A DNA stretch of 64,000 bases from Ianthella basta (taxonomy: Eukaryota > Porifera > Demospongiae > Verongiida > Ianthellidae): NCBI GenBank assembly GCA_964019415.1, contig OZ025870.1, positions 3,031,908-3,095,907 on the forward strand, read 5' to 3'. Both the position numbers and the translations under genes were made by a program. Under the pieces are notes generated by a model that searched no databases, had not been told where the DNA came from, and saw only the letters and a program-made list of their open reading frames with translations. Positions 20,273 through 64,000 of this stretch are shown piece by piece (the first letter of the stretch is position 1; the number at the start of each line of letters is the position of its first letter).

Positions 20273-21316
20273 TTAATTGCAGAAGAGGATGATTTCCTCT
20301 TCTGCAGCCATAGATATGGTATTTAGGTTGTAATGAGATGAGTGGCCATCTAAGAGAAGGAGAAGTGGCCGACTCGATGGTGCATGCACCAGGAAGTGGT
20401 TACTGAACCACTCATGAAACAAGTCAGTATTCATCCATCCGCTGTCAGATAAATCATAGAAGGTTCCCGGAACTTCTCCCATGGTCATTTCGATCTGAAG
20501 GTGTTTCCGGTCGAAAATGACCATAGGTGGTATGCTGTACCCGCTCGCGCTGGCACAGGCCATCACAGTGATCTGCGATTTGTCACCTGATGTTAAGGTG
20601 TATGGATGCTTCTGGCCTACACTTGTAACCACTCTAGGTGGCTTTTGTGTTAGGGGCATCCCTGTTTCGTCACAATTATAGATTTGCCCCGAACAATGGG
20701 CCAAGCCATATTCTGCAATGGTCTTTTCAAGCAAATTGAAGTAAGCTTCAATGATTTGCGGATTATTGGCGATCGCTCGGGCATAAGAGAGGGGCTCAGC
20801 ATGTCTGAGTGAGATCTCTGGATGCCGTTGGCGGAATCTGTCCCACCACCCTTTTGTCAGTTCAACATCACAATCAGGATTGCGGGCATTGACCATCTGC
20901 AGGGCAATTGCGAGCACATCTTGTCGGGATTTAGCATACCCTACTGAAGCACAATCAACCAAAAACTGTACAAGTTTGGCTTCATCTTCATCCGTAAGAT
21001 ATGCTCTCCTGCCACTTTTGGCCTTGACAGGGACCTTCCCAGTTACCTTGTCATACAAGGTAGATTTGGGGACTCCGTATTCTTCAGCAGCTGCTCCTAC
21101 AGTTAGCTTGCCTGTCAGCACAGCTTCGCATGCCTTGTCCATACTAAGGATACTGTATCCTCGGTAGGTCTGAGGGCGTGTAGTAGTGAAGGGTACAGCT
21201 ACTTTGTCATGGGATCTTGCAATCCTTGATTGCAAGGAAGACTGACCAGCAACACGAAGTGGAGCACAGCCAGCCATGTCTACAAGGGAACAGTCACATT
21301 TACACTCAGTAGACAT
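20273..21316 (-). CDS. pogo/Tigger transposase, truncated before third catalytic Asp
   Basis: The frame is 347 residues from ATG. Residues about 57-100 form a psq-type helix-turn-helix (VGAAAEEYGVPKSTLYDKV). Residues about 105-170 are a CENP-B-like second DNA-binding region (GWWDRFRQRHPEISL). The DDE_1 core follows with YNCDETG (Asp216) and LLLLLDGHSSHY (Asp323). A full pogo enzyme continues past a third Asp, but here the frame stops after EEEIILFCN. The C-terminal tail and finger lie beyond in other frames, so an internal deletion removed the end of the catalytic core. The role was cut-and-paste transposition at TA sites; this copy is predicted inactive. Confidence 0.88.
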   Translation of the reverse strand: MSTECKCDCSLVDMAGCAPLRVAGQSSLQSRIARSHDKVAVPFTTTRPQTYRGYSILSMDKACEAVLTGKLTVGAAAEEYGVPKSTLYDKVTGKVPVKAKSGRRAYLTDEDEAKLVQFLVDCASVGYAKSRQDVLAIALQMVNARNPDCDVELTKGWWDRFRQRHPEISLRHAEPLSYARAIANNPQIIEAYFNLLEKTIAEYGLAHCSGQIYNCDETGMPLTQKPPRVVTSVGQKHPYTLTSGDKSQITVMACASASGYSIPPMVIFDRKHLQIEMTMGEVPGTFYDLSDSGWMNTDLFHEWFSNHFLVHAPSSRPLLLLLDGHSSHYNLNTISMAAEEEIILFCN

Positions 21317-21985
21317 TATTGTGTTTGGTCATGGCCAGCTGTTTAATGAATGTTTATTTTGGAAGCCTTATTAATGTATACTTTGTGAAGCTTTGTTATG
21401 GAGTGTGACTTAACCACAAATATGCAAATGGTTGGCTGGCGTGCATGCTGAAGGCATACCTTGAGGCTCGTTTGAAACGTTTCGGCACACAGTTCGCTCC
21501 CAGGCACTCAGAGAGGAAAGGGAAAGACAATTGATATAAACTGCAGTCACGGACAAGTCGCAAATTCAAAAAACCTGCAATGGGATAGTTTAGGAAGTTG
21601 CCGATTTTTGATGACCCCAGCGCTTCCTGTTCAAGGCAGTGGTGCGTCGTCGCCGGTAAACCTATTCGCCCTAATCTTCTGCTGCGGCCAGGACTTGAGT
21701 GTACTCACCTGCTTAGATGGTAAGAGTGCACAAATCTTCTAGCTTCGCGATGTACAAGTCGCCGACCGAATTTAGATGACTTCCAACCGAATTTATGTTA
21801 TTTCGGAAATAGCGTATTTGAAGCAATATCTTGTGTTCGGAAAAGCGGATCCACGCCAAACGTTCTGCATCCTCTTGAATACTTCTCCTCTACATGTGCA
21901 CCAAGAATCGCGGCGAAAGAAGCTGTAACGGTCGAGATCTGGTTACCGATTATTGATGACTTCCGAATATTGATGCCACACCCTA

Positions 21986-27134: not shown

Positions 27135-30100
27135 CATGGTGCAAAAACAAAAGCACCACTTGCTACATCTCAATGGAACAAACCAGTAATACAGAGGAAA
27201 CGTGGTCCCAACTGGAAAGAGACTTACCAGCAAAGAAGCGCACAATGTGTCTATACTGCCATGCCTACAAAGCCTACCAGAATTTTGAAGAATAAAATGA
27301 TGGTAAGTAGCTAATGACCATTTAGCTTTCTTTCCATTTATTATGTGCGTAATATTGTGCCGCATGATCACATGTGTCTGTTATTAAGTGGTTTTAACTA
27401 ATATATATAGTGTGTATTTATGTGTGTGCTCAGCTGTCTTATTTATGTAATAGTTAAATGCTGACCAAGAGGTGTCTCTGAGATTTAGAGCACGAGCCAT
27501 GAGGGTGCGAAGCGCCCGAGTGCCAAGTGGTCTAAATCTTCAGAGACACCGATTGGTCAGCATTTAAGTGTTATAGATCCCAACGATTGGGTAAGGAGCG
27601 CCAGCAAATCAGTTTAACTAGTCGTACTTGCGTCATCACGCGTCTTCCGGAAGTAGTTTGCAATTTCTGACAATGGCTGAGAAAACGTTGTTTGGTTATT
27701 GGATTTGTCATCTCGCAGCAGGCGTTCCTAAAGGTCGGCAGTGGATGCGGCGCGTAAGCTAAATGTAAGCTTACTCACTGTCAGCCCCGTCAGCCACAGT
27801 GTTTCCCAGAGTGGTGTCTTAAGCCTGTTCCCAGCTCGTAACCAGCTCCATTCTTGGCTCTGGTTGGTAGGCCGCTACATGCCGGATTGTTGCTTTACCC
27901 TGTTTGTCAACGAAACAAGTAAACCGAGCGACCTGTGCATCATATGTTGTGGAGTTAGCTACTATTGTTATCGCAGCTGCAGTTTCTCTGCTATAGATCA
28001 CGGGCCCAAGCCACGCCCATGCTCTAAATTGCTATTTAGAGCATAGGCGTGAACGCGCGCGTCGAATTAGAACACGGCTAGACGAAATAGACCACGGCGC
28101 GAAACAACACCCGGGGTATCTAAGACGTTTAGAAACATCGTATAGACGCACGTTACCATGGCAAAGGGATCTATACTCCATTAATTTTGATACCCTCCAC
28201 AGCTTTACTACTGGTATTATTAATTGTAATGCACTAGTGTATTCGTAGATCCACAACAATGATTGGACAAGCAACTTTCACTGTGGCCATGGACTGTGGC
28301 AACTAGCTAATTGCAAGCAATCCTAGGTCTATTGCATAGTGTGCTTGTGTACTTATGTCTACAGCTCATTAATTCACTGTACTGTACTGTACTAATGAGT
28401 GGTGACTGCACTTGCTAATTTTTATTATACATAATATAGCTGCTATTACCATTGGATTGTGCATGAATATAGCACAGTGACTATTATGTTGAGGCATGTT
28501 CAACTTGTTTGGCCACTGTTACTATGTGTAATGATATACACATAATATATATACTTTATATATGTGAGTCAGACAAAGCTTATATAATTGTTGCAATTCT
28601 CTATAATAATACAGAAGATGGAGACTGCCCCAGAACCATTGACTGCAGGCAGTGCCATTGTGTCAGGTAATTTTATTATCATACTGTGCATGAAAAGCTG
28701 TCGACAAGATTATACATTTCAGACTTAGTGCAACCAGTGTATTGGCAATGATAGATCCTGTTCAGTGACCCTTCATTATCTGTGTCATTCTTGCAACAGC
28801 TGAAGAAGATCTACAGAAGTACTGCTACATGGCTACTAACATCCAACAGCTCTTCATTGGTCCTGGTGGAGGGACCTTTACTCTGGGAAGTGGAGATGCA
28901 ACACTAGTGTTTCCCAAAGGAGCTGTTAAGAAGAAAACTTCCGTCCGCTATGCCATCATCCTTCACGGTCCGTTTGTCTTCCCTGATGGGAGCAAGCCAG
29001 GCTCAGTGATTGTGTATATAAACATGGATGGAGCCATCTTGGTGAAGCCTGTTCAACTGAAACTCTCCCACTGGTGCATCACTGAGAAAGGAGGTAAAGA
29101 CTCTCTGAATTTTGTACATGCTCCACACACACTGGAAAGTGGGAAGCAGACATACACTTTTGAGAAAGAGGAGGATGAGGAAGATTTCACTACTTATACT
29201 GATCAAGGAGTCCTGACTATACGAGAACCAAAGTGCCTGACATGTGTAGAAACTAACATTGCGACAAAGGCAAGGTACAATGCCATCACATTCACTCAAT
29301 ACATCCATGAAGAAGACACCTTGCTCTTCAGAATACAATTTATATGTGATTCAATTGAATGGAATGAGGTATGAGGGAGCATAGTATGCACTTGACTAGA
29401 CTTTCATGAATTTGGGTATAAACTTACACCCAATCTTCAATATATTCCATAATATTACATATAACTTACATCAAATTATAATAACTAAAATATTAAGCTT
29501 ACTGATTCAGTGTATGCATTTTCTGACTGTACGACATTGTGCATGCATGTAGAAAATGACAAGTACACTGGAAGAAAGCAATTGGAAGAAGAGCAACTGC
29601 AGTGGTATGGTGCAAAGGTTTTGCTTTGCTCCTTCCAAGCGTATGGCTGCCATAACTGCCACCCCCCCTGAACCACATGGACCTGGATGGACAGCAACAA
29701 TTGAAGGGGCACATGCGGTTAGTGAGATTGCAATTTGCAAATAAGGTGCAGCAACTATAATTTACATTTATTTATACTATTGCATTATAATAAGTATAGC
29801 AATACTATGAAAGACTGGAATTTCTGACTTCCCTTACGCATAAATATGTAGATCAAAGAGAATGATTTTCTGCTGCCATTGGGAAAATGTACCTCTGACA
29901 TGGAACGTGAAGTCAAATGTGGATATTTCCCTCCAAGTGTCTGCTACAAGATTCTGTACACTGTCCCTGAAGAGAAACGGGTGAGACCAGCTCTACTAAA
30001 GGTTCACCTGCAGGGAGCTGATGTTCCACTCACCTTTAGCTGCACAGTCAAGGAGGAGGCAAGTGAGTTTGCTCTGCATAATATTGTTATTCACTGTATG

Positions 30101-31243
30101 TTAAATTGTGTTACTGTTTATGTATTTTCATATGGTTTCAACTGCATGCTCCTTTTATTTTGAAGGCATGTATATTCTACAGCGTTTTCCTGCAAGTTAC
30201 ACTTCCTCTGCATGCACAGCTCCATCCTTCCCTGTCCTGCCAGTTCTCTCTAAATCATGCAGTGCAGGAATTGTGCAAAGTTAATTCCAGAATCTTATAC
30301 TAATACGCTGTAATGATAGTGGCATGCATGCATTCATATTGTACCTATGTTACATAATTTTATTGATCTCACCCCTACTTAGTATAGTTCCAATAATATG
30401 TAGTAGCTGTTATGTTTTGCTACATATTAAATATTGTTTTCATGGATGACCTTTACTTTCTCTGCAGCTGCCTCCTCTGGGATCTCTTCACGTGCTGAAA
30501 TGCCCTCTAGCTCACCACAGACAGATATTCGTGAAGCTGCAGGTAAGAACGAAGTTTGTTATATACTCTACGTTACACATTATCTGGTGGTCAACCAGCA
30601 GCAACTAGGTCACAGCTGCAGTTATGAGCCATGGTTAATGTTTAGCTGTTTTCCCTCACTTGCCCATTGCTATGACGATTGCACTGAAGAGACTGACAAA
30701 TTATATTAATATTATCAGCAGATTTAGGTACATATTTTTGGAATGAAGAAGCCCTCAGATATTCACTTTACATTAAATATAGTTCCCAATGCTTGCACAG
30801 TCATACAATTATAATTGCATACGTATATACCTACACATGCAAGCCATGCACTACTACATGCACATTTCCCATAGAATTGTATGATACAAAATTTGACAAA
30901 AACTAAAATTTCAATACGTTTCTAATAATTGTTTGTTCCAAAGATGATGCCACTATCCACTTGTCATATAGATGTGATTACAGCCCTAAATCATCAGTTG
31001 GATGCAAGGTGGAAGGAGTTTGGAGCATTTCTGCATGTATGTCCGGAATTAATGGATAGCATTGAACAGGATGAATTAAATGTTGGACGGCGCATGTTGT
31101 CTCTGGTGGGGAAGTGGTTGGGCCGTGAATATGGAACTGGTAAGCGCTGGCGTACCTGGAAGACAGTGGTGCAAGCAGTGAAGAATATGGGCAAAGAACC
31201 TTTGGCAGAACAGTTGGCACAACAACACAGAGTGCAACTATAA
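27135..31243 (+). CDS. ZU5 and death-domain protein, copy 1 (intact)
   Basis: Seven exons, 27135-27302, 28615-28666, 28800-29368, 29553-29717, 29852-30062, 30468-30542 and 30972-31243, join with consistent phases into 504 codons including the stop. Residues 1-73 are basic and low in structure (motifs PVIQRKRGPNWKE and METAPEPLT); translation may begin at an internal Met or in an upstream exon. Residues about 86-190 are a ZU5 domain (GGGTFTLGSGDATLVFPKGA, GPFVFPDG). Residues about 200-390 are a probable UPA-like part (ending VPLTFSCTVKEE). Residues 390-413 are a Ser/Pro linker. Residues 414-503 are a death domain (ALNHQLDARWKEFG...WRTWKTVVQAVKNMG). ZU5-UPA-death is the cytoplasmic module of UNC5 and PIDD, which signals to apoptosis or NF-kB by death-domain binding. 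No transmembrane segment is seen. Intron 1 holds a 730-bp insertion. Confidence 0.85.
27443..28174. mobile_element. Hairpin-headed insertion B in intron 1
   Basis: Compared with the homologous intron of copy 3 (58020-58060), about 732 bases are extra. They begin with a palindrome (27447-27575; GAGGTGTCTCTGA(A)GATTTAG and mirror, loop GGGTGCGAAGCGCCCGAGTG). A body then starts TATAGATCCC and ends GGGATCTATA. No transposase is recognised. The absence in the paralogue proves it is an insertion or a paralogue-specific loss. Confidence 0.75.
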
Positions 31244-34936
<3,693 letters not shown>

Positions 34937-44571: not shown

Positions 44572-47538
44572 AATATGGAGACTGCCCCAGAACCATTGAC
44601 TACAGGCTGTGCTGTTAAAAAAGGTAATTTTATTACCATACTGTGCATGAAAACCTATTGACTAGATTATACATTGCAGACTTAGTACAACCATTGTATC
44701 TGATTGATAGATCCTGTTCAGTGACCTTAATTATCTGTGTCATTCATGCAACAGCTGAAGAAGATCTACAGAAGTACTGCTACATGGCTACTAACATCCA
44801 ACAGCTCTTCATTGGTCCTGGTGGAGGGACCTTTACTCTGGGAAGTGGAGATGCAACGCTAGTGTTTCCCAAAGGAGCTGTTAAGAAAAAGACTTCCATC
44901 CGCTATGCCATTATCCTTCACGGTCCATTTGTGTTCTCTGATGGGTGCAAGCCAGGCTCAGTGGTCGTGTATATCAACATGAATGAAGCCACCTTGATCA
45001 AGTCTGTCCAACTGCTACTTTCCCACTGGTGCATCAGGGAAGAGGATGATGGGGTCACTCTGAAGTTTGCACATGCTCCGCACACATTGGAAGCAGGGAA
45101 GCAGAAATACACTTTGAAAGTGTGGAGGAAGAGGCAGAATTTACTCTAAATAAGGGAGCCCTGACTATACGAGAGCCAAAGTGCTTATATTGAGTAAGAT
45201 CTGACAAAGCGACAAATGCTAGGTACAATGCTGTTACATTCACACGTTACATCCCCAAAGACGATATTCTGCTCTTCCGAATACAGCTAATTTGTGATTC
45301 AATTGAATGGAATCAGGTACGTATGATGACATACATATAGCTGTAGATTTGACAGTGATTACCTTAAGGCTACATATTGTAGCGGAAGTTAAAGTTAGTG
45401 TTTTAAAAGTGCAGGATTAGGTGGGTGCAAAATTAACTGACTTTCCAGCCTTTGCATTGCTAATTATTTTTGCCTGTACGAAAATTGCAAAAGTACAATT
45501 ATTCTTCTTTAGTGAAAGCAAATATTAGTGATTTTCACTACTCGAAGATTTGCTAAAACAAAGTACCCATTACAATCAATAGTCCTAAGATGTATGACAA
45601 TGGGTATGTACACAAGGTCTTCAATTTATTGCATGCAAAAGCTTTCCAGTTTCTGTGCATGCATACTTTTGACTGTATTTGTTTAGAGAATGACATATGC
45701 ACTGGGCAAAAAGGGTTGGCAGAAGAGCAATGATGTTGACTCTGTGCCTCGGTTTCGCTACGCTTCTGCTAAGATACACACAACACTAGCCACATTCCAG
45801 GGACCTGGCTGGGAAGCAGCAATTGAAGGGGTACACGAGGTTAGTGAGATTGCACTCCATTTGCAAAACACAGTGACAATATTCATAATAACTTTTGTAA
45901 CTGCCTATGCATTGACTGCCTGAATTAATTCCCTTATATGAAACATGTAGATTGAGGAAATGGAGTTTCTGCTGCCCTTGGAAAAGTCAAAATCTGAAAT
46001 TGATCAAGAAATCATCCACGGATATTTCCCTCCATGTTTTTGCTACAAGATCGTCTTTACTAGTCCAAAAAAGAAACGAGTTTGACCTGCCTCACTAAAA
46101 GTTGATCTGCAAGGTGCAAATGTGCAACTTACCTTTAGCTGCACATTCAAGGAGGACCCAAGTGAGAGTGAGTGTGTGTATATACCGCTATGTGAATGTG
46201 CACATATTTGTGCACACTGTTAGTATGTATAATTATAGCAATGTTTTGATGTTTATGCCTGATGGAATATAGTTAAATGCATCTTAACTACCCACTTTCT
46301 GCTAATCGTTCATCTGATGTTGCAATATCTATATAAAATTATATTAAATCAGATAGTGACTTTCTGCTACAGAGCAATGCTATGATTATACTGCTGCATG
46401 GGCACCATACATTGTAATTCTCTTTCAAACCTTTATTAGCAGTATACATTGTCTTGCACTGTTTACTTGTGTATGTATCACCTTTCATTATACCCCTACT
46501 TGTTGTACATATTAGCCTGTTCCCTCAGAGTCATGCATGCAATACAGGTACCATGCAAAGTTCATTCCTAACAGTAATACATAGGAATGATTGCAGCATG
46601 CATTCCTTTACTCATGTTGGCAAAGTCTTGTTTATCACAGAATACATGTTGCATTTATGTATTATAATGGTTTGCTCTATATCTCTCTTCACATGCAGAA
46701 TTGCCTATTTCTTTCCCTAAGGTACCATCCAGCTCACTACCAGCAGATATTCGCAATACTGCAGGTAGGAATATGTAGTTTGTTGTGTATACTCTACATT
46801 TCACATTCACATTATTATACTGATCATGAATGGTTTGGCGGTTGAGCAGTGGCTGCATGTGCTAACACAGTGTGAAGTTGTGGCTGTATAAATTCCCCTC
46901 ACTTACGTAAGATTATAGTTATGAGCTGTACACTGAAAGTGGCAATTAACTAAAAGCTTTAATGTAATTGTATTATATAAATTATATGATTGCATTGTGT
47001 CCCGGAAGATTTAGGTAAATATATGTGTCATTCAATTGCATGAATAAAGAAGTCCTTATGCATGCAGACATCTACTTTTAAATAAAATATTCTCAGTGCA
47101 TGCACACTAATACAGTTTGTCTTGCAGTGCACATGCACACACTAGCCGTACACTGCAGTATTCATTTAGTGTTAAAATCATTGAGCTAGGAGAAAAATTT
47201 CAATAGGAATCTCATATTGTTTGTTATAAAGTTGTGCCATGCACTATATTAATTGTCATCCAGATGTGATTAAAGCCCTGAATCACCAGCTGGATGCCCG
47301 CTGGCGGGAGTTTGGAACCACTCTATATATGGATCCTGCCATCATGGACATCATTGAACAGGATAATGTACATGTTGGACCCTGCATGTTGTCTTTGGTA
47401 GAAAAGTGGTTGCGCTGTGAACGTGGAACTGGCAGCCTTCCTCGCACCTGGATGACAGTGGTACAGGCAGTGAAGGATGTGGGGGAGGAAGGCCTGGCAG
47501 AGCAGTTGGCCATAACATATGGTGTGCAGCTGCAGTAA
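44572..47538 (+). pseudogene. ZU5 and death-domain gene, copy 2 (disabled)
   Basis: The exon order matches copy 1: 44572-44623, 44755 to about 45315, 45687-45839, 45951-46161, 46699-46764 and 47264-47538, with the same splice phases. The first exon (PVIQRKRGPNWK) is not found upstream. Three lesions are visible: a one-base loss after GKQKYTL near 45115, a TGA where the other copies encode Cys after CLY near 45193, and a TGA in place of the Arg of KRVRPA near 46085. The death-domain exon (DVIKALNHQLDARWREFG...) is intact and as conserved as in copy 1, so a shorter transcript using only the 3' exons cannot be excluded. Confidence 0.8.
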
Positions 47539-55558: not shown

Positions 55559-56359
55559 TAGGGCCGTCGGAGGCAATTTAGAAGTGGTAAGGCCATTGGG
55601 CGAAGGATACAAAATGTCGCGAGCGAAAAAATTTTTTAGCTACTTTTCATTATCATACAGATAATGTTTGCTACGGATCTGTGCCTCAAGAATGGTGATG
55701 CCTTTGCTAGCCCAGCATGCACTCTCGATCAGTCAGTAAGTCGTTTTAAGAGGGTTACATAGATTTCACAATAAATCATGTTCTTGTTTTGCATGCATTG
55801 TCTGTACACAGTATATATAATATATTAATGAACGAAGCCATATCAATATTTCCACAGATTAGCAATTTCTGAAAACCTGCGCGAGGCTGATGAGGCTTGT
55901 CACCTATTGTCGGCGTTCTTAGGTCCACGTGCTTCGACGATGAGACCATTTTGAATTGTTACATCACCTTTAGGGTATAGCGATTCGCTGACGTGTGGTT
56001 CTACAAGCCATGCTTCGTAGCGCCAGGTGATGCGAGAAAACGATTGCCTACGTACGCGCTGCTGGCCTCCATCTTTATTACGTTTCGAATCGATTACGTA
56101 ACAAAACATGGCGAAAGAAAGGAGCGTGCTTGCAAATCGTGAAGTATTGGACCCTACTTGATATCTCCGGTTTCATTGCATCTGCTAACAACCTAAGATC
56201 ATTGCTTCTTTGTTTCCTCAACGGTTAGTTTGGGTAGGGTAGGGTTTATCTGGTTTAGTAGCTAAAAACACTGCTTTTGAAAATAAAAAAAAAACTGCTA
56301 GCTGTTCAAAAAGTGGTACGGCCATGGCCGTACCGGCCGTACCGCCTCCGACGGCCCTG
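55559..56359. mobile_element. hAT-like non-autonomous element, 801 bp
   Basis: The ends (T/C)AGGGCCGTCGGAGGC are inverted repeats of 16 bases, with GGTA(A/C)GGCCAT-like sequence further in. The flanks GATATTTA and GATATTAT look like a decayed 8-bp target duplication. CAGGG-type ends and an 8-bp TSD fit hAT elements. No transposase is seen. Confidence 0.7.
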
Positions 56360-56944
56360 GATATTATTCACTATTGAGTGCTATATAGTTTTGCCTAGCT
56401 GGACTGTATACCTTCTAGAGTCTAGCTAAGTGAGACTAGTTCAGTGCATGTCTTCCTCACTAAGTATATAGACAGACTATAATCCTGTAGTGTTTCTGTT
56501 AAGATGTCACCAATTGAACCAACAGCAAGCTTAGTAGGTTTCACTAGAACTTCCAAGCTGCATAAAGGATTGTCACATATAATCCCTAATACTTAGTATT
56601 TGAGATGCACCCTGAAGTACGTACATAATATGTAGTAATAATAATTACTTTTGGCCTATGAATACCATAATTTGCATATCATTTGTAAGTGCTCAGGAAA
56701 TATGCCGGATGCATGCTCTCTATAGAGTTGCAGTTGCAGACTGCATGGCCATGCATTGTCACTCACAGCCACCTATGCCAGGTACATTTCACAGCATATT
56801 ATGTTTTGGAGGAAGGTGACTTTAGATTGTATCAGTACTCACTGCATGTCAATGTACATTAGTGCTATTTAACTAATGGTGTATAATGTATGGAAGTTGT
56901 GCTTTACATGTATGCACTCCTATTTAGACCTGCCGCTTCAGTTA
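56360..56944. other. Intergenic, no gene recognised
   Basis: Nothing supported. Confidence 0.5.
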
Positions 56945-57185
56945 GGATTTCAGGACAGGCTGGTTTACAAGCAAAGACAAGCCTGTGCAATGGCTCTCTC
57001 CCACAGCCTACGTAAGTACTGAAGATGACTGTACCAACCTGAGTGATGGCAAATATAAAATCACAAGTGTAAGCTTCAGAAATTGCTAAAAGCTGCATGG
57101 TTAGCCACTTCAATGAAATGGAAACTGGCAGTAGTTGAGCTGAGAGTAATATTTAATTAACATAATAGAGGCTCATAGCTGCATT
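56945..57185. repeat. Dispersed repeat, partner of 11710-11965
   Basis: Same blocks in the same order as at 11710-11965 with small insertions. Confidence 0.8.
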
Positions 57186-57187
57186 GG

Positions 57188-57680
57188 TCAATCCATATAT
57201 CAGAAAATAGGCTAAGCAATACTGCAGCTTAAAGAACACAAAGACCACCAGGTCGAAACGTCCTGCTATCACACTGTGTTCTTTAAAGGGCAGTATTGCT
57301 TGCCCCACTTCATGATTGAGAATTACACTTAACTATCTCAAACTTCTTCATGCTGTTCTGCAGTCTCTTCCACAGATAGTTGCAAGCAGCTTATAGCATT
57401 GATTCGTACTCTATCATTTTGTAAAGATGGGTCATTTCATCAGAAATCACTTTTGAAAGATTTTCAATAAAGCGCTTCCACAATCAGTATGTTTATTGTC
57501 TTTCAACTGCTCTTCCTTCACAATATTCCTTTGCTACTGTGTAAATTTCCTTTCCAGCTTTAATTTTGTAAACACTTAGATTCTTCTTCTATCTCATTCT
57601 GAAGGTCTGTCTCTGGCGCTTTACACTGTGGCAATGTCTCATTCCAATTTGCTTGTGTCTGTTTGTGTGTTTGCCCTGTA
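57188..57680. repeat. Dispersed palindromic repeat with coding remnant, copy 2
   Basis: Colinear with 16230-16745: the AGCAATACTGCAGCTTAAAG foldback, then the minus-strand coiled-coil remnant QTQANWNETLPQCKA with an early stop. It directly abuts the first recognised exon of ZU5 copy 3. Confidence 0.85.
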
Positions 57681-57729
57681 GCAAAGAAAAATAGCGCAAA
57701 TTACCATTTTTCTTTATTGTATTACATAG

Positions 57730-60700
57730 GTGCAACAGCAAAATCACCTCTTGCTACATCTCAATGGAGCAAACCAGTAATACAGAGGAAACGTGGTCCC
57801 AACTGGAAAGAGTCTCAGACTCACCAGCCAAGAAACACACAAAGTGTCTATAGCGCCATGCCTACAAAGCGTACCAGAAATGCAAAAAATAAAACAATGG
57901 TAAGTAACTTATGACCACTGAGTTTTCTTTCCATTTATTATGTGGCAGTGCATGTACATGTGCATATTATTGTGCTGCATGATCATGCATGTCTGAAGTA
58001 GCTATACAATGAGAATCTGTCTTTATGTGTGTGCTTAGCTGTCGTATTAACTCCATCAATTTTGATACCCTCCACATGCAGCTTTACTGCTGGTATTATT
58101 GTAATGCACTAGTGTATTTGTGGATGTCCATGCACAACAGTGATTGGATAAGCTACTTTCACTGTGGCCATGCATGGACTGTGCCAACTCGTTAAATGCA
58201 AGCAATCGTAGGTCTATTGCATGGTTTGCTTGTGTACTTATGTCTATAATATTATACATCAGTTCTCAATCTCAATTCACTGTACTGTACTGATCAATGA
58301 TGTACTGACTGATGGGTGGTGACTGCACTTGATAATTTGCATTATACATAATTTAGCTGCTACTACTAGTGGATTGTGCATGAATATAGCACTATTCTGT
58401 TGAGACGTTCATCTTGTTTGGCCACTTATACTAGGTGTAATGATATCATAATATAATTATGCTCTATATATGTGAGTCCAATGAAGCTTATATTATTGCT
58501 GCAATTCTATATAATTATATAGAAGATGGAGACTGCCCCCGAATCATTGACTGCTGTTGAAAAGGGTAATTTTATTACCATACTGTGCATGAAAGCCTGT
58601 TGACCAGATTATACATTGCAGACTTAGTGCAACCATTGTATTGGCAGTGATATTGATCCTGTTCAGTGACCTTAATTATCTGTCATTCATACAACAGCTG
58701 AAGAAGATCTGCAGAAGCACTGCTACATGGCTACTAACATCCACCAGCTCTTCATTGGTCCTGGTGGAGGGGCCTTAACTCTGGGAAGTGGAGATGCAAC
58801 GCTAGTGTTTCCCAAAGGAGCTGTTAAGAAGAAGACTTCTGTCCGCTATGCCATTATCCTTCATGGTCCATTTGTCTTCCCTGATGGGAGCAAGCCAGGC
58901 TCAGTGATCGTGTATATAAACATGGATGGAGCCATCTTGGTGAAGCCTGTTCAGCTGAAACTCTCCCACTGGTGCATTACTGAGAAGGGAGATAAAGACT
59001 CTCTCAAGTTTGTACATGCTCCACACACACTGGAAGCAGGAAAGCAGACGTACACTTTTGAAAAAGAGGAGGATGAGGAAGATTTCACTACTTATACTGA
59101 TCAAGGAGTCCTAACTATACGGGAACCAAAGTGCCTAATATGTGTAGAAACTAACATTGTGACAAAGGCAAGGTACAATGCCATCACATTCACTCAATAC
59201 ATCCATGATGAAGACACCTTGCTCTTCAGAATACAACTTATATGTGATTCAATTGAATGGAATAAGGTATCAGGGAGTATAGTATAAAATTGACTAGACA
59301 TTTATGAAATTGTGTATAATCTAACACATGATATTGATCTTCAAGAATTTATTCTACAATTATACCTTGCATAACACTATAATAGCTCACTGTTTCAGTT
59401 TATGCATATTTTTACTGTACGACATTGTGCATGTAGAAAATGACAAGTACACTGGTCCAAAGCAACTGGCAGGAGAGCAGCTGCAGTAGTATGGTGCAGC
59501 GGTTTTGCTTTGCTCCTGCTGAGCATATGGCTGCCATAACTGCCACTCCCACTGAACCACAGGGTCCTGGATGGACATCAACAATTGAAGGGTCACATAA
59601 GGTTAGTGAGATTTCTATTTGCAAATAAGGTACAGCAACTATAATTTACATTTATTTATACTTTTGCATTATAATAATTATAGCAATACTATGAAAGGAC
59701 TGGAAGTTCTGACTTCCCTTACGCATAAATATGTAGATCAAAGAGAATGATTTCCTGCTGCCATTGGGAAAATGTCCCTCTGACATGGAACATGAAGTCA
59801 AATGTGGATATTTCCCTCCAAGACTCTGCTACAAGATCCTGTACACTATCCCTGAAGAGAAACGGGTGAGACCAGCTTTTCTAAAGGTTCATCTGCAGGG
59901 TGCTGATGTTCCACTTACCTTTAGCTGCAGAGTCAAGGAGGAGGCAAGTGAGTTTGGTCTGCATGATAAGTACTAGTTATAACATGGCCGCGAGGGCGCT
60001 GGCTGATTTATCACACGAGGGCGCGAAACGCCCGAGTGCGATAAATCAGCTAAACGCCCGAGCGGCCATGTTACAACTGACTTGTTACGATTCAAACAGC
60101 AGCGATTAGCGTTTGAATTCGTTCGCTGTCGAATGAATTTATCGAACCTGACTGAAGTTACTATAGAAAGCAGAGAACACTCTCTTCTCGGAGCACAAGG
60201 CGAAAGGCGAGAAACGTCGCAAGAAAAAGACTGTCAGCGGCCTCTCGTACTGAATAAAGCGTCAGCGCCGCTTGAGTCGGCACTAGGGCAGATGATTAGA
60301 AGTCCTACAAGCAGCGTATGAAGGGATAACTTTCTTTTTTAGAGAGTGTACTAGGATCTAAACAACTGGAGAACTTGGGGGTGGCGAGACCTACCTTCAA
60401 GTTGATCCATCAAGTGAACTCGGTAAAGGGAATCTGAGTTTCTCTGTCACTAAAGACATTACATGCACAATTACATGTCACTGCCATAAAAGTACACATG
60501 CAGTGCTGTGCTAGGCATAAATTTATGTTGATGACCATGCTTCCAAGTGCCAAACACTCATCATTCCAGAGCCAATGTTCATGAGAAAGTTTACAAGGTG
60601 ATGAATATCAAAGGCATTTTGCTAAAGCAGTAGACAAAACATTTGTTTAAGGCTAGAAAGTGATTGGGTTAGCAAATAAGAGCCCCGTTCGACACAGTGT

Positions 60701-63134
60701 GTTATGAGGTGTGAAAGTGTAAACAGTGGCATTATGCGAAATTAGCACACTGCAGATTGCTTTGATGTATGGCTTCCTCATGTAACAATTAGTTTGTTCA
60801 CTGTGTTAAATTGTGTTACTGTGTATGTATTTTCATATGATTGTAACTGTATGTTCCTGCTTTTATTTTGAAGGCATCTATATTTTACAATGTCCTGCAA
60901 ATTAAGCTTCTTCTGCATGCACAGCTCCATCTTTCCTTGTTCTGTCATTTCTCTCTAGGTCATACAATGCAGGAACCATGCAAAGGTAATTCTCGAATCT
61001 TATATTAATATACTGTAATGATAATGGCATGCAAGCATTCATATTGTACTTATTTTGCATAATTCTATCAATCTCACCCCTACTTAGTATAGCTCCAATA
61101 GTACGTATGTAGCAGCTGTTATTTAGTAGCTGTTATGTTCTGCTTCATATTAAATATTGTTTTCATGGATGACCTTTACTTTTCCTGCAGCTGTCTCATC
61201 TGGAAGCTCTTTATGTGCTGAAGTTCCCTTTAGCTCACCACAAACAGATATTCCTGAAGCTGCAGGTAGGAATAGAGTTTGTTATGTACACTACATTGCA
61301 CAATATCTGGTGGCTGCGTGCATGCACACATTTTGACGCGTTTGAGTGACATAAAATTATTACAACTGTTGCAACAGCATTCATTGCTATTTTGTTAACA
61401 ATCACTTCATTGTCTTTATCCTTCGTGTAGCAGTTGAAGAAGATCTAAATGAACTCTGCTATATGGCTACTGACATCAAACAGCTCCTCATTGAAGACGG
61501 CGGAGGGACGTTCACACTTGGAAGTGGTGATGCCACACTAGAATTCCCCCTTGGAGCTGTAAAGGAGCAGACACCACTCCACTATGCCATTATCCTTCAC
61601 GGTCCATTTGTGTTCCCTGAAGGGTGCAAGCCAGGCTCAGTGATAGTATATATCAACATGAATGGAGCCACTCTGCTGAAACCTGCTCAGTTGACCCTCT
61701 CCCACTGGTGCAGCAGGGAAAAAGGAGACGAGAACACTCTGAAGTTCATACATGCTCCACACTCACTGGAAGCAGGGAAGCAGACGTATTCTTTCAATGA
61801 AGAGGACGATGAGGCAGATTTCACTATATTTGGTGATAAGGGAGTCCTGACTATACGGGAGCCAAATTGCTTATATTGCGTTAAGACTAACAGAGCAAAC
61901 ATTGCTAGGTACAGTGCCATCACGTTCACACGTGACAACCCAGAAGAAGGCACGCTGCTCTTTAGAATACAGCTTATATGCGATTCGATTGAATGGGACG
62001 AGGTATGAATAATTGACCAGTTAATATGAATTGTATATGTATATGAAATTGTGTATATTATATTATTTATAATGTTTATATATACATGTGCTTCAATGTA
62101 TGTGCAAGCATACCCTCCCCTTTGAGTGTGTGAATACATACTTCTTATCATATGCGTGTAGAAAATGACAAGTTTACTGTTCAAAAGAGGTTGGAGGAAG
62201 ATCAGCTGCAGTGATAGTGCACCTCAGTTTTGCTTTGTTCTTGCTACAAGGCTCATATCCGCCACACCCATTTCAGCACATGGACCTGGATGGACAGCAA
62301 CAGTTGAAGGGGCACATGAAGTTAGTGAGATTTCTATAATTATAATATTATACAATTTGCATAACAAGAGATAGTGACTGCTGATATATTTACAGTATCA
62401 GTCTATGCACTGTCTAAATTCATTGTAAATATAGGTCAAAGAGGTAGAGTTTCCATTGCCTGCCAAAATATCTAAAGTGGAATTTGAACAAGAGGTTATC
62501 AGAAGATGTGTCTGCTACAAGATCCTATATACAAGCCCACTAAAGAATAGAGTGAATCCTGCCTTTCTCAGGGTTCATCTGTGTGGTGCAGATTTGCAGC
62601 TTACCTTTAGCTGCACAGTCATGGAGGACCCAAGTGAGTTTGTGCATGCATGTTTTGTTCATCTACTTTGTTACAGTACATTATCTGCAAGACTGAGTAT
62701 ATGCAAACCATGCATGCAAAGGTTTATTCCTGCATGTTCCCATTATAATTGTTTGTGGCATGCATGCATTTGCATATAATCATTATGATTATGCATTAAG
62801 TTTTCCTATTGTATTAGTACTTTTGCAATTTAAGTAATCACAATGTCATTCATATCACTCAATCAATTAGTCACATTGTCAAGCAGTGATGACTCCATAT
62901 GCATGCAGGAGAGTGCCTACTTAACAGAACATGATTCAACTATAGCTGTAGAAAACAGTACTTCTTAATTATGTTAACATGGAAGTTGTAAATTTGAGTA
63001 TGCCCTTCCTCGGTTGCATTCATTGTAATTAATTTTTGCTTTGCAATTTTTTATTTAATGACTCACCTATTGTTTTTCCTCTGCAGCTGCCCCTTCTAGA
63101 CCATATCCCTGTGTTGAGATAACCAATGTTGCAG
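57730..63134 (+). CDS. ZU5 gene copy 3 with two ZU5 modules (3' end outside window)
   Basis: Ten exons in consistent phase: 57730-57899, 58523-58565, 58698-59266, 59437-59601, 59737-59947, 61191-61265, then 61434-62002, 62162-62320, 62435-62633, 63087-63134. Together they give 736 codons without a stop. The first six mirror copy 1 up to the Ser/Pro linker. Instead of a death-domain exon the next exon is another ZU5 (VEEDLNELCYMATDIKQLL, GGGTFTLGSGDATLEFPLGA) preceded by its own in-phase acceptor, then its UPA-like and linker exons. No METAPEP-type exon or promoter-like first exon lies between, so a tandem-domain fusion is the simplest reading. The end (a death domain or further module) is beyond 64000. 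Intron 5 carries an 822-bp insertion. Module 1 is much closer to copy 1 than module 2 is. Confidence 0.78.
59972..60793. mobile_element. Hairpin-headed insertion C in copy 3 intron
   Basis: Copy 1's homologous intron (30063-30467) lacks about 822 bases. The insert starts ACTAGTTATAACATG and ends CATGTAACAATTAGT (inverted). It opens with a near-perfect hairpin (59977-60078; ACATGGCCGCGAGGGCGC, GCTGATTTATC and mirrors, loop CGAGGGCGCGAAACGCCCGA). A frame of about 79 codons at 60082-60321 has no recognised domain. Confidence 0.8.
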
Positions 63135-64000
63135 GTAGGAAAAGAGTATACAGTTATGTACAATGGAAATGGTATGGTAGTTAATCAGTGATTGACACTC
63201 CACAAATGAGCTTACATGGCAAGTTCTAAGATGTAAACCTTAGTTAAGAATTGTGCACAGCAAATTTCTCTTTACTTGCCTATCAGCTATGGATGTGCAG
63301 AATGGCAGCGAAACATATTTTCTGCTTTTTATCACAGTTGAATTAAGGCAGTGTACATATATACCAACAGAGTTAGGTACATATTCTTGATTAAATGACT
63401 CAAGAGTTCAACTTATCAGACATAATTAAAATCATACTTTACCTGCATGGAATACTTTTGTACAAATCCCAATGTATGTAGGTCATATAAGCTAGTCTTA
63501 CCAAAGTCATACATGTGTATGTATTGCATTTGGCATACTCATATCACTACCATAATATTCATTCAACGTATACTGTGTACATGTTAAACTTGCGTCAAAA
63601 TGAATCATGCAGGCTATTAGTAAGTGAAACTCCAATCTAACATATTAAAAGCTGATAGTGTGTGTGCATGCGTGTGTGTTCGCTGTGTGTGCGCGCGTTT
63701 CTTGCTCCATCACCGCTGAACTTGCTGTGGTTGCTAGAGGCACCGGGAGTCAGGTTATAGAGGGTTGACATTGCCTGTCTTGTGGTTCGCAGAGAGTTAT
63801 CAGTCCATTTCCACTTTTTCCTTTGCGGAAGACAGCCATTTTCTAATTATTGTCCCCATTGACCAGACTTGATTGGCTGTCATCCCACATGCAGTAGATT
63901 TTAAACCAATAATCATCACGCCAGCTAAAATTATATTTTAGCTGTAGTGGTATCATGGTTGCCGAGGGAATTGGGGGACAGGCATTGGGCGTGGTAGCTC
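63135..64000. other. Intron or 3' flank, possible second Helitron 5' end
   Basis: A|TCTAACATATTAAAAGCTG at 63636 followed by GTGTGTG-rich sequence resembles a Helitron 5' end, but the 3' end would be outside the window. A short palindrome AGCTAAAATTATATTTTAGCT lies near 63925-63945. Confidence 0.3.

Follow-up and report, generated by a model that had tools for sequence, protein, structure and literature searches.

The window analysed here comprises 64,000 bases of the sponge Ianthella basta (GenBank assembly GCA_964019415.1, contig OZ025870.1, here called C3; C3:3031908-3095907 in a 209-Mb genome of 96 contigs) and carries a tandem array of genes of the ZU5-UPA-Death type. The third member of this array, copy 3, contains two ZU5-UPA modules, a and b, ahead of a death domain (DD). 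Copy 3 is probably one fused gene, which arose when an intron-to-intron deletion joined tandem ZU5-UPA-Death genes of different sublineages, and which would encode an uncut adaptor of the UNC5 type. The two modules have different origins, the intron between them is chimeric, the reading frame is open, and one DD is present for two ZU5 modules. The event itself was presumably a deletion, and the gene would be transcribed as a single mRNA, the product of which may function as an UNC5-like adaptor.

A tblastn search of 104 kb (the window with flanks of 10 kb upstream and 30 kb downstream) located ZU5 exons of the array at 28799 (copy 1), 44754 (copy 2), 58697 and 61436 (copy 3, modules a and b) and 73950 (copy 4), and DD exons at 30959, 47242, 64084 and 76416. 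The two ZU5 exons of copy 3 (58698-59266 and 61431-62002) lie on the same strand 2.7 kb apart and share 70% amino acid identity across 189 residues (E 9e-91, tblastn). Paralogues and splice borders served to predict the exon limits of copy 3. Starting with the ATG of the leader (58526), the ten predicted exons splice into 2322 nucleotides (nt) encoding 773 amino acids plus a stop codon, with no internal stop, and all nine introns are GT-AG.

A sequence-only reading of this stretch had described ten exons open for 736 codons, and these were recovered: AG/GT borders are present, and the exons from 57732-57899 through 63134 amount to 2209 nt. It had also proposed that the phase of the first linker leads into a second ZU5 exon. 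Indeed, phase 1 is the end phase of linker exon 61191-61265 and of the leader exons alike, so the linker continues in frame into the second ZU5 exon at 61431, with phase 1 on both sides and the frame open. The leader-to-ZU5, UPA-to-linker and linker-to-DD introns are each in phase 1. No DD had been seen in that reading because the last exon lies outside the window; past position 64000, where it had suggested looking, lies an exon with a stop codon at 64094-64377 (L020:94-377, L020 being the sequence just past the window end). Searching by tblastn with the DD of copy 2, we found no further DD exon between the one at 47242 (copy 2) and that of copy 3, the sole match being short, on the minus strand and at E 0.79, and no DD exon of copy-1 type at the junction of the two modules.

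Synonymous divergence (dS) over the ZU5 and UPA exons is 0.167 between module 3a and copy 1 and 0.118 between module 3b and copy 4, as compared to 0.65 between 3a and 3b (0.73 for ZU5 alone). In a tree built from 17 ZU5 exons, 3a grouped with copy 1 and a copy at 2.959 Mb with support values of 99/99 (3a and copy 1 alone only 83/56), and 3b grouped with copy 4 and a copy at 2.976 Mb with 100/99 (3b and copy 4 alone 94/95). Forcing 3a and 3b together made the tree 229.6 log-likelihood units worse (p-AU 7e-147) in an approximately unbiased (AU) test, which was run after the pattern had already been noticed. The sequence-only reading had explained the repeated module by exon-block duplication within one gene. 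The repeat itself stands, as ZU5-UPA-linker-ZU5-UPA-linker in one frame, and modules a and b agree in exon order and phases, as such a duplication would predict. They are, however, not sisters in the tree, and the intron that joins them combines parts of two parental introns. Duplication within one gene is thus refuted by dS, tree, AU test and intron; tree and chimeric intron rule it out, and we give it practically no chance.

The position of the switch between the two types could be read from the DNA. Copy 3 is 86% identical to copy 1 across 58050-59968 and 82% across 60794-61313, with an insertion in between. Identity to copy 4 is 86% across 61318-63312 and 92% across 64030-65500; the intervening intron matches poorly, and the DD exon is 72-80% identical. 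Hence, the type switches at 61313/61318, inside the intron joining the first linker to the second ZU5 exon. The left 48 bases of this intron align with the linker-to-DD intron of copy 1 (49 of 58 columns, exon end included), and the right 113 bases with the leader-to-ZU5 intron of copy 4 (111 of 129 columns, exon start included). A genome-wide DNA search with the junction 61191-61460 found it as a whole only once; the four places matched were the junction itself, copy 4 (bases 128-270), copy 1 (bases 1-123) and a short piece of copy 2. Of the 945 bases before the ZU5 exon of copy 4, a stretch that includes the leader, a convincing match within 59948-61440 is limited to the last 116; three other matches, 19-25 bases long, have E 0.05-0.6. 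Therefore, the leader of copy 4 and its near upstream region are missing at the junction.

These data also bear on the possibility that two separate genes adjoin here, module a ending early and module b having its own promoter. Retention of intron 61266-61430 would stop module a about 23 codons beyond the linker, which would speak for such an arrangement. The sequence-only reading had named a transcript end between 61265 and 61434, or a separate start before 61434, as incompatible with a fusion. The gap measures only 165 bases and contains neither AATAAA nor ATTAAA, which would argue against a transcript end, and the loss of the copy-4 leader and near upstream region would argue against a start; we therefore consider two genes to be very improbable. 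We likewise attach little weight to an assembly artefact arising from misjoined reads or haplotypes. Tandem arrays with near-identical stretches are prone to such errors, and copies 3 and 4 are 94-100% identical over 64500-65500. In the two halves of copy 3, however, the ZU5 protein deviates by 6% and 13% from the nearest copy; copies 1 and 4 themselves are therefore not what was joined. Furthermore, copy 1 has no match past 61313 in the joining intron, so the switch does not lie inside a stretch shared with copy 1, and no N is present in 56001-64000 or in L020.

We propose that an upstream copy-1-type gene and a downstream copy-4-type gene were the tandem parents of copy 3. A deletion would have linked the linker-to-DD intron of the first gene to the leader-to-ZU5 intron of the second, thereby taking out the DD of the first as well as the leader and promoter of the second. 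A phase-1 donor and a phase-1 acceptor would then splice in frame to give leader-ZU5a-UPAa-linker-ZU5b-UPAb-linker-Death; the frame would be kept because both introns have phase 1 in common. Among the intron pairings between two such genes, 13 of 25 keep the frame, so that its retention is by itself unremarkable. The parents would be represented by their relatives, copies 1 and 4, and were not themselves seen; a single deletion would be the simplest account. In the cluster at C3 2.959-3.109 Mb, seven ZU5 exons stand against six DD exons (an in-frame TAG is present in one of the latter), a tally consistent with a deletion-fusion that removed one DD.

Among the five other DD exons compared, that of copy 4 is nearest to the DD of copy 3, yet their DNA identity is just 77%, as against 93% between the ZU5 exons of copies 3 and 4 and 90% in the 400-base 3' flank. 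The low identity may reflect fast change or conversion of the exon. Gene conversion was dropped as a candidate, as the four remaining DDs in the comparison are no closer to that of copy 3 than the DD of copy 4 is. Comparison of L020:30-2046 (window 64030-66046) also showed that the high similarity of copies 3 and 4 over 64500-65500 is preceded directly by the much more divergent DD exon.

The features of copy 3 are listed in the table below. The most upstream exon has a single counterpart in the 104 kb, located at copy 1 (27138-27320, 85%). It may be a real coding exon and could equally well be 5' untranslated region (UTR); the chain from the leader ATG is complete without it. The insertion in the first UPA-linker intron was used as a genome-wide query (59966-60400) and was found in full length at at least 40 places, itself included, with 93-100% identity (40 of 346 candidates scored); its inverted arms include 59975-60078.

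Table. Features of copy 3 in window coordinates
Feature	Position	Strand	Remarks
Possible 5' exon (UTR or N-terminal extension)	57732-57899	+	AG/GT borders; phase 0 out; frame open with leader
Leader exon from ATG, METAPESLTAVEK	58526-58565	+	Phase 1 out; also present in copies 1 and 4
ZU5 exon a, copy-1 lineage	58698-59266	+	94% amino acid identity to copy 1
Putative UPA exon 1, module a	59437-59601	+	UPA by position and colinearity with single-exon C20 paralogue
Putative UPA exon 2, module a	59737-59947	+	Phase 1 out
Insertion in UPA-linker intron	59969-60793	+	Absent from copy 1; a dispersed repeat with inverted arms makes up at least its first 430 bases
Linker exon, module a	61191-61265	+	Phase 1 in and out
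Chimeric intron	61266-61430	+	61266-61313 copy-1 type; 61318-61430 copy-4 type; 61314-61317 neither
ZU5 exon b, copy-4 lineage	61431-62002	+	87% amino acid identity to copy 4
Putative UPA exon 1, module b	62162-62320	+	Paralogue match and borders
Putative UPA exon 2, module b	62435-62633	+	Phase 1 out
Linker exon, module b	63087-63134	+	Phase 1 out; 86% DNA match to copy 4, surroundings included
DD exon with stop codon	64094-64377 (L020:94-377), just past window end	+	66% amino acid identity to copy-2 DD

The domains of the predicted protein were assigned by profiles, structure models and paralogy. Spliced copy 3 scored 23.7 bits with Pfam ZU5 (cut-off 21), the best stretch lying in module a, which identifies a ZU5 domain; exon a alone reached 19.5 bits, below the cut-off, and exon b alone gave no match. 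Of the 26 ZU5 exons aligned, 19 matched Pfam ZU5 at E up to 0.1. Exon 3b yielded a poor AlphaFold model (mean pLDDT 53), and none of the model's 55 fold matches reached E 0.001; the best match of this low-confidence model in the PDB was the cytoplasmic domain of UNC5b (3G5B, E 0.023, TM 0.47), followed at ranks 2-8 by ankyrin or ankyrin-spectrin entries. The putative UPA exons were named by their position and by their colinearity with a single-exon paralogue on contig C20, which aligns over the ZU5-UPA part of module a (E 3e-30); its alignment to module b extends into the DD, covering approximately the first 30 residues of that domain (E 4e-23). The DD exon of copy 1 scored 22.5 bits with Pfam Death (E 1.3e-4), just under the cut-off of 22.6, and the C-terminal DD of copy 3 is recognised by its paralogy to that of copy 2. 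In place of one ZU5-UPA module per chain, copy 3 has two in one frame.

We asked how copy 3 has evolved by counting changes on its branches, with the 2.959-Mb copy (3a) and the 2.976-Mb copy (3b) as outgroups and neutral expectations from 5000 simulations. The 3a branch carries 16 synonymous and 15 nonsynonymous changes over 314 codons, as compared to a neutral mean of 23.2 nonsynonymous changes (P 0.0012); module a has thus been under constraint. Splice borders, frame and DD exon of copy 3 are all intact. Copy 2 (44754-47535) is broken by a frameshift near 45113-45161, a TGA in the ZU5 exon and a second TGA in the second UPA exon; its DD exon is intact. The DD exon with the in-frame TAG mentioned above belongs to the 2.976-Mb copy (L060:about 680-980, C3:2979280).

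Several observations weigh against copy 3 as one working gene of ZU5-UPA-Death type. The exon chain was drawn solely from paralogues and splice borders. The profile check proposed by the sequence-only reading recovered ZU5 only: Pfam UPA matched nothing among the exons, the spliced proteins and the C20 paralogue, and the DDs of copies 3 and 2 had no Pfam match. Spliced copy 1 stayed below the cut-off for both domains (ZU5 14.4 bits, Death 16.2 bits), and the C20 paralogue matched no Pfam family at all. Searching PDB sequences with a profile of the ZU5 exons found no ZU5 chain and gave one weak match, a lipoprotein at E 0.057; the C20 paralogue gave three matches only, at E 1.5. The 3b branch showed no constraint (8 synonymous and 24 nonsynonymous changes over 306 codons, neutral mean 24.1, P 0.56), and some of the 3a branch, and with it part of the constraint on module a, may be older than the fusion. 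The open frame alone is weak evidence, because neutral sequence often stays stop-free, with a chance of 0.275 for module a and 0.337 for module b. Copy 3 could thus be the same fusion with an unused product, a decaying or silent chimera heading to the state of copy 2 and still open since the event is fairly young. The apparently neutral 3b branch, the broken neighbour in the array and the neutral chance of about 0.09 (0.275 x 0.337) that both modules stay stop-free, which is not small, would agree with this. Against it stand the reduced amino acid change on the 3a branch and the intact borders, frame and DD exon; we regard an unused chimera as unlikely, though clearly less so than two genes or an artefact, and favour a fused gene that would be in use.

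According to excerpts of PMC3210808, ZU5-UPA adjoins a C-terminal death-fold domain in UNC5, PIDD and CARD8/NLRP1, PIDD, CARD8 and NLRP1 undergo cleavage at an HF/S or SF/S motif, and replacement of the phenylalanine by histidine severely impairs cleavage. The same excerpts assign two ZU5 domains to PIDD, and a PIDD-like gene on contig C15 (L059, C15:6952600-6955000) contains both triads (DHFS, NHFS) in addition to leucine-rich repeats (LRR) and two ZU5 stretches; the listing of PIDD among proteins with a single ZU5 in the sequence-only reading has to be corrected accordingly. In a low-identity alignment with this PIDD-like gene, copy 3 shows PKC and PNC at the HFS positions. Self-cleavage of copy 3 is unlikely, because PKC and PNC replace the triads and a change of the phenylalanine impairs cleavage, an argument carried over from other residues; therefore, an uncut adaptor would be expected. 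Cleavage at the conserved SHWC or AITFS/AITFT motifs of a 26-row alignment was considered and dropped, as the HFS triads of the C15 gene align elsewhere, at PKC/PNC.

In the predicted protein, the C-terminal DD would signal, the adjacent ZU5b-UPAb would pack on it and hold it back, and ZU5a-UPAa in front would provide a second regulatory or binding platform; self-cutting as in PIDD or NLRP1/CARD8 would not be expected. The nearest receptor-free kind of such an adaptor is, we presume, UNC5CL. Each parental gene has the order ZU5, UPA (by position), Death, as in UNC5 and UNC5CL, copy 3 shares with these the lack of an HF/S triad, and the low-confidence model of exon b fits UNC5b 3G5B best; copy 3 differs from both in having two ZU5-UPA modules before one DD, and from UNC5 in having no receptor part among its predicted exons. 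PIDD1 (LRR-ZU5-ZU5-UPA-Death) also combines two ZU5 domains and one DD per chain, but its ZU5 domains are adjacent, share one UPA and bear HF/S sites, whereas copy 3 has UPA exons between the ZU5 exons as well as PKC/PNC. Ankyrin (ZU5-ZU5-UPA-Death) likewise has two ZU5 domains ahead of a DD; in contrast to copy 3, these are adjacent, with one UPA and ankyrin repeats (4d8o). The FIIND proteins NLRP1 and CARD8 (ZU5-UPA-CARD) place ZU5-UPA before a death-fold domain too, whereas copy 3 ends in a DD instead of a CARD and has no SF/S or HF/S at the PIDD-aligned site, as judged from the alignment with the PIDD-like gene and not with NLRP1 or CARD8.

The sequence-only reading had called the architecture unusual, and close ZU5 pairs are indeed rare within this genome. 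Three queries were merged, namely Pfam ZU5 (19 matches), exon 3b (151 matches, 150 entered) and a ZU5 exon of contig C6 (150 matches); scoring in the two protein queries covered 150 of 225 and 150 of 231 candidates. Together, the three queries yielded at least 212 ZU5 places more than 700 bases apart among the matches listed. This count is slightly inflated, since matches with identical scores on contigs C5, C25 and C76 indicate that contigs repeat, and some places are fragments or contain stops. Apparently, a very large ZU5 family is mostly missed by Pfam ZU5 in a six-frame search (19 as against 212 listed with paralogue queries). Same-strand ZU5 neighbours less than 3 kb apart were found only twice among the 212 places listed, in copy 3 and at C6:9092806/9094287.

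The exons of the C6 gene (L055:1154-5273, C6:9092653-9096772) were assigned by eye. They follow the order leader-ZU5-UPA-ZU5-UPA in a single frame, with phases equal to those of copy 3 but no exon for a linker, and the DD exon has an in-frame TGA shortly after its start. Among the matches listed, the first ZU5 exon is nearest to C13:6203245 and C6:9076104 (87% each) and the second to C10:865191 (86%), while the two share 48% with each other. Because their nearest relatives differ, the C6 pair also joins two unlike lineages. A pair on contig C9 (7198776/7203385, 4.6 kb apart) was rejected as a third tandem pair, since inspection by eye showed other exons separating two distinct ZU5-UPA genes, and tblastn gave no DD match. 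The C9 cluster (L056, C9:7197500-7205500) contains ZU5-UPA-like genes without a tblastn DD match, followed by an exon that looks helical by eye; it represents a different architecture.

Genome-wide, at least 150 DD matches and at least 102 NACHT matches (102 of 469 candidates scored) were found, and none of the 102 NACHT matches listed lies in the C3 cluster at 2.95-3.11 Mb. NACHT-Zu5 proteins of early animals, as well as large sets of NLRs in sponges, are mentioned in excerpts of PMC12909245, and excerpts of PMC8195603 report large TRADD-N families in the sponge Amphimedon as well as TRADD-N fused to FIIND and UPA-ZU5 modules. Titles and the first parts of abstracts of the open-licence PMC articles found by literature search mention neither a stand-alone ZU5-UPA-Death family of such size nor a ZU5-UPA-ZU5-UPA-Death protein.

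Additionally, some other features of the region were observed. Downstream of copy 3, L020:3556-5090 contains a gene whose exons, judged by eye, have an Ig-like and fibronectin-like appearance; stretches similar to it (73-80%) occur at around 83-85 and 88-90 kb (window coordinates). From their translations, an open frame at 33340-34869 on the plus strand appears reverse-transcriptase-like and one at 20273-21328 on the minus strand DDE-transposase-like.

Copy 3 points to a specific and readable route by which a tandem array can build a new domain architecture, namely deletion between unlike, phase-matched introns. More tentatively, and with less confidence than we have in the fusion itself, the phase code of the family may leave about half of all intron-to-intron deletions between neighbouring tandem genes in frame, and double-module genes may have originated at least twice (C3 and C6) from unlike parents, such fusions serving as a standing source of diversity among the approximately 200 family members. 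The fused gene would be an unusual but understandable outcome of a very large, fast-changing family of immune-type signalling genes.

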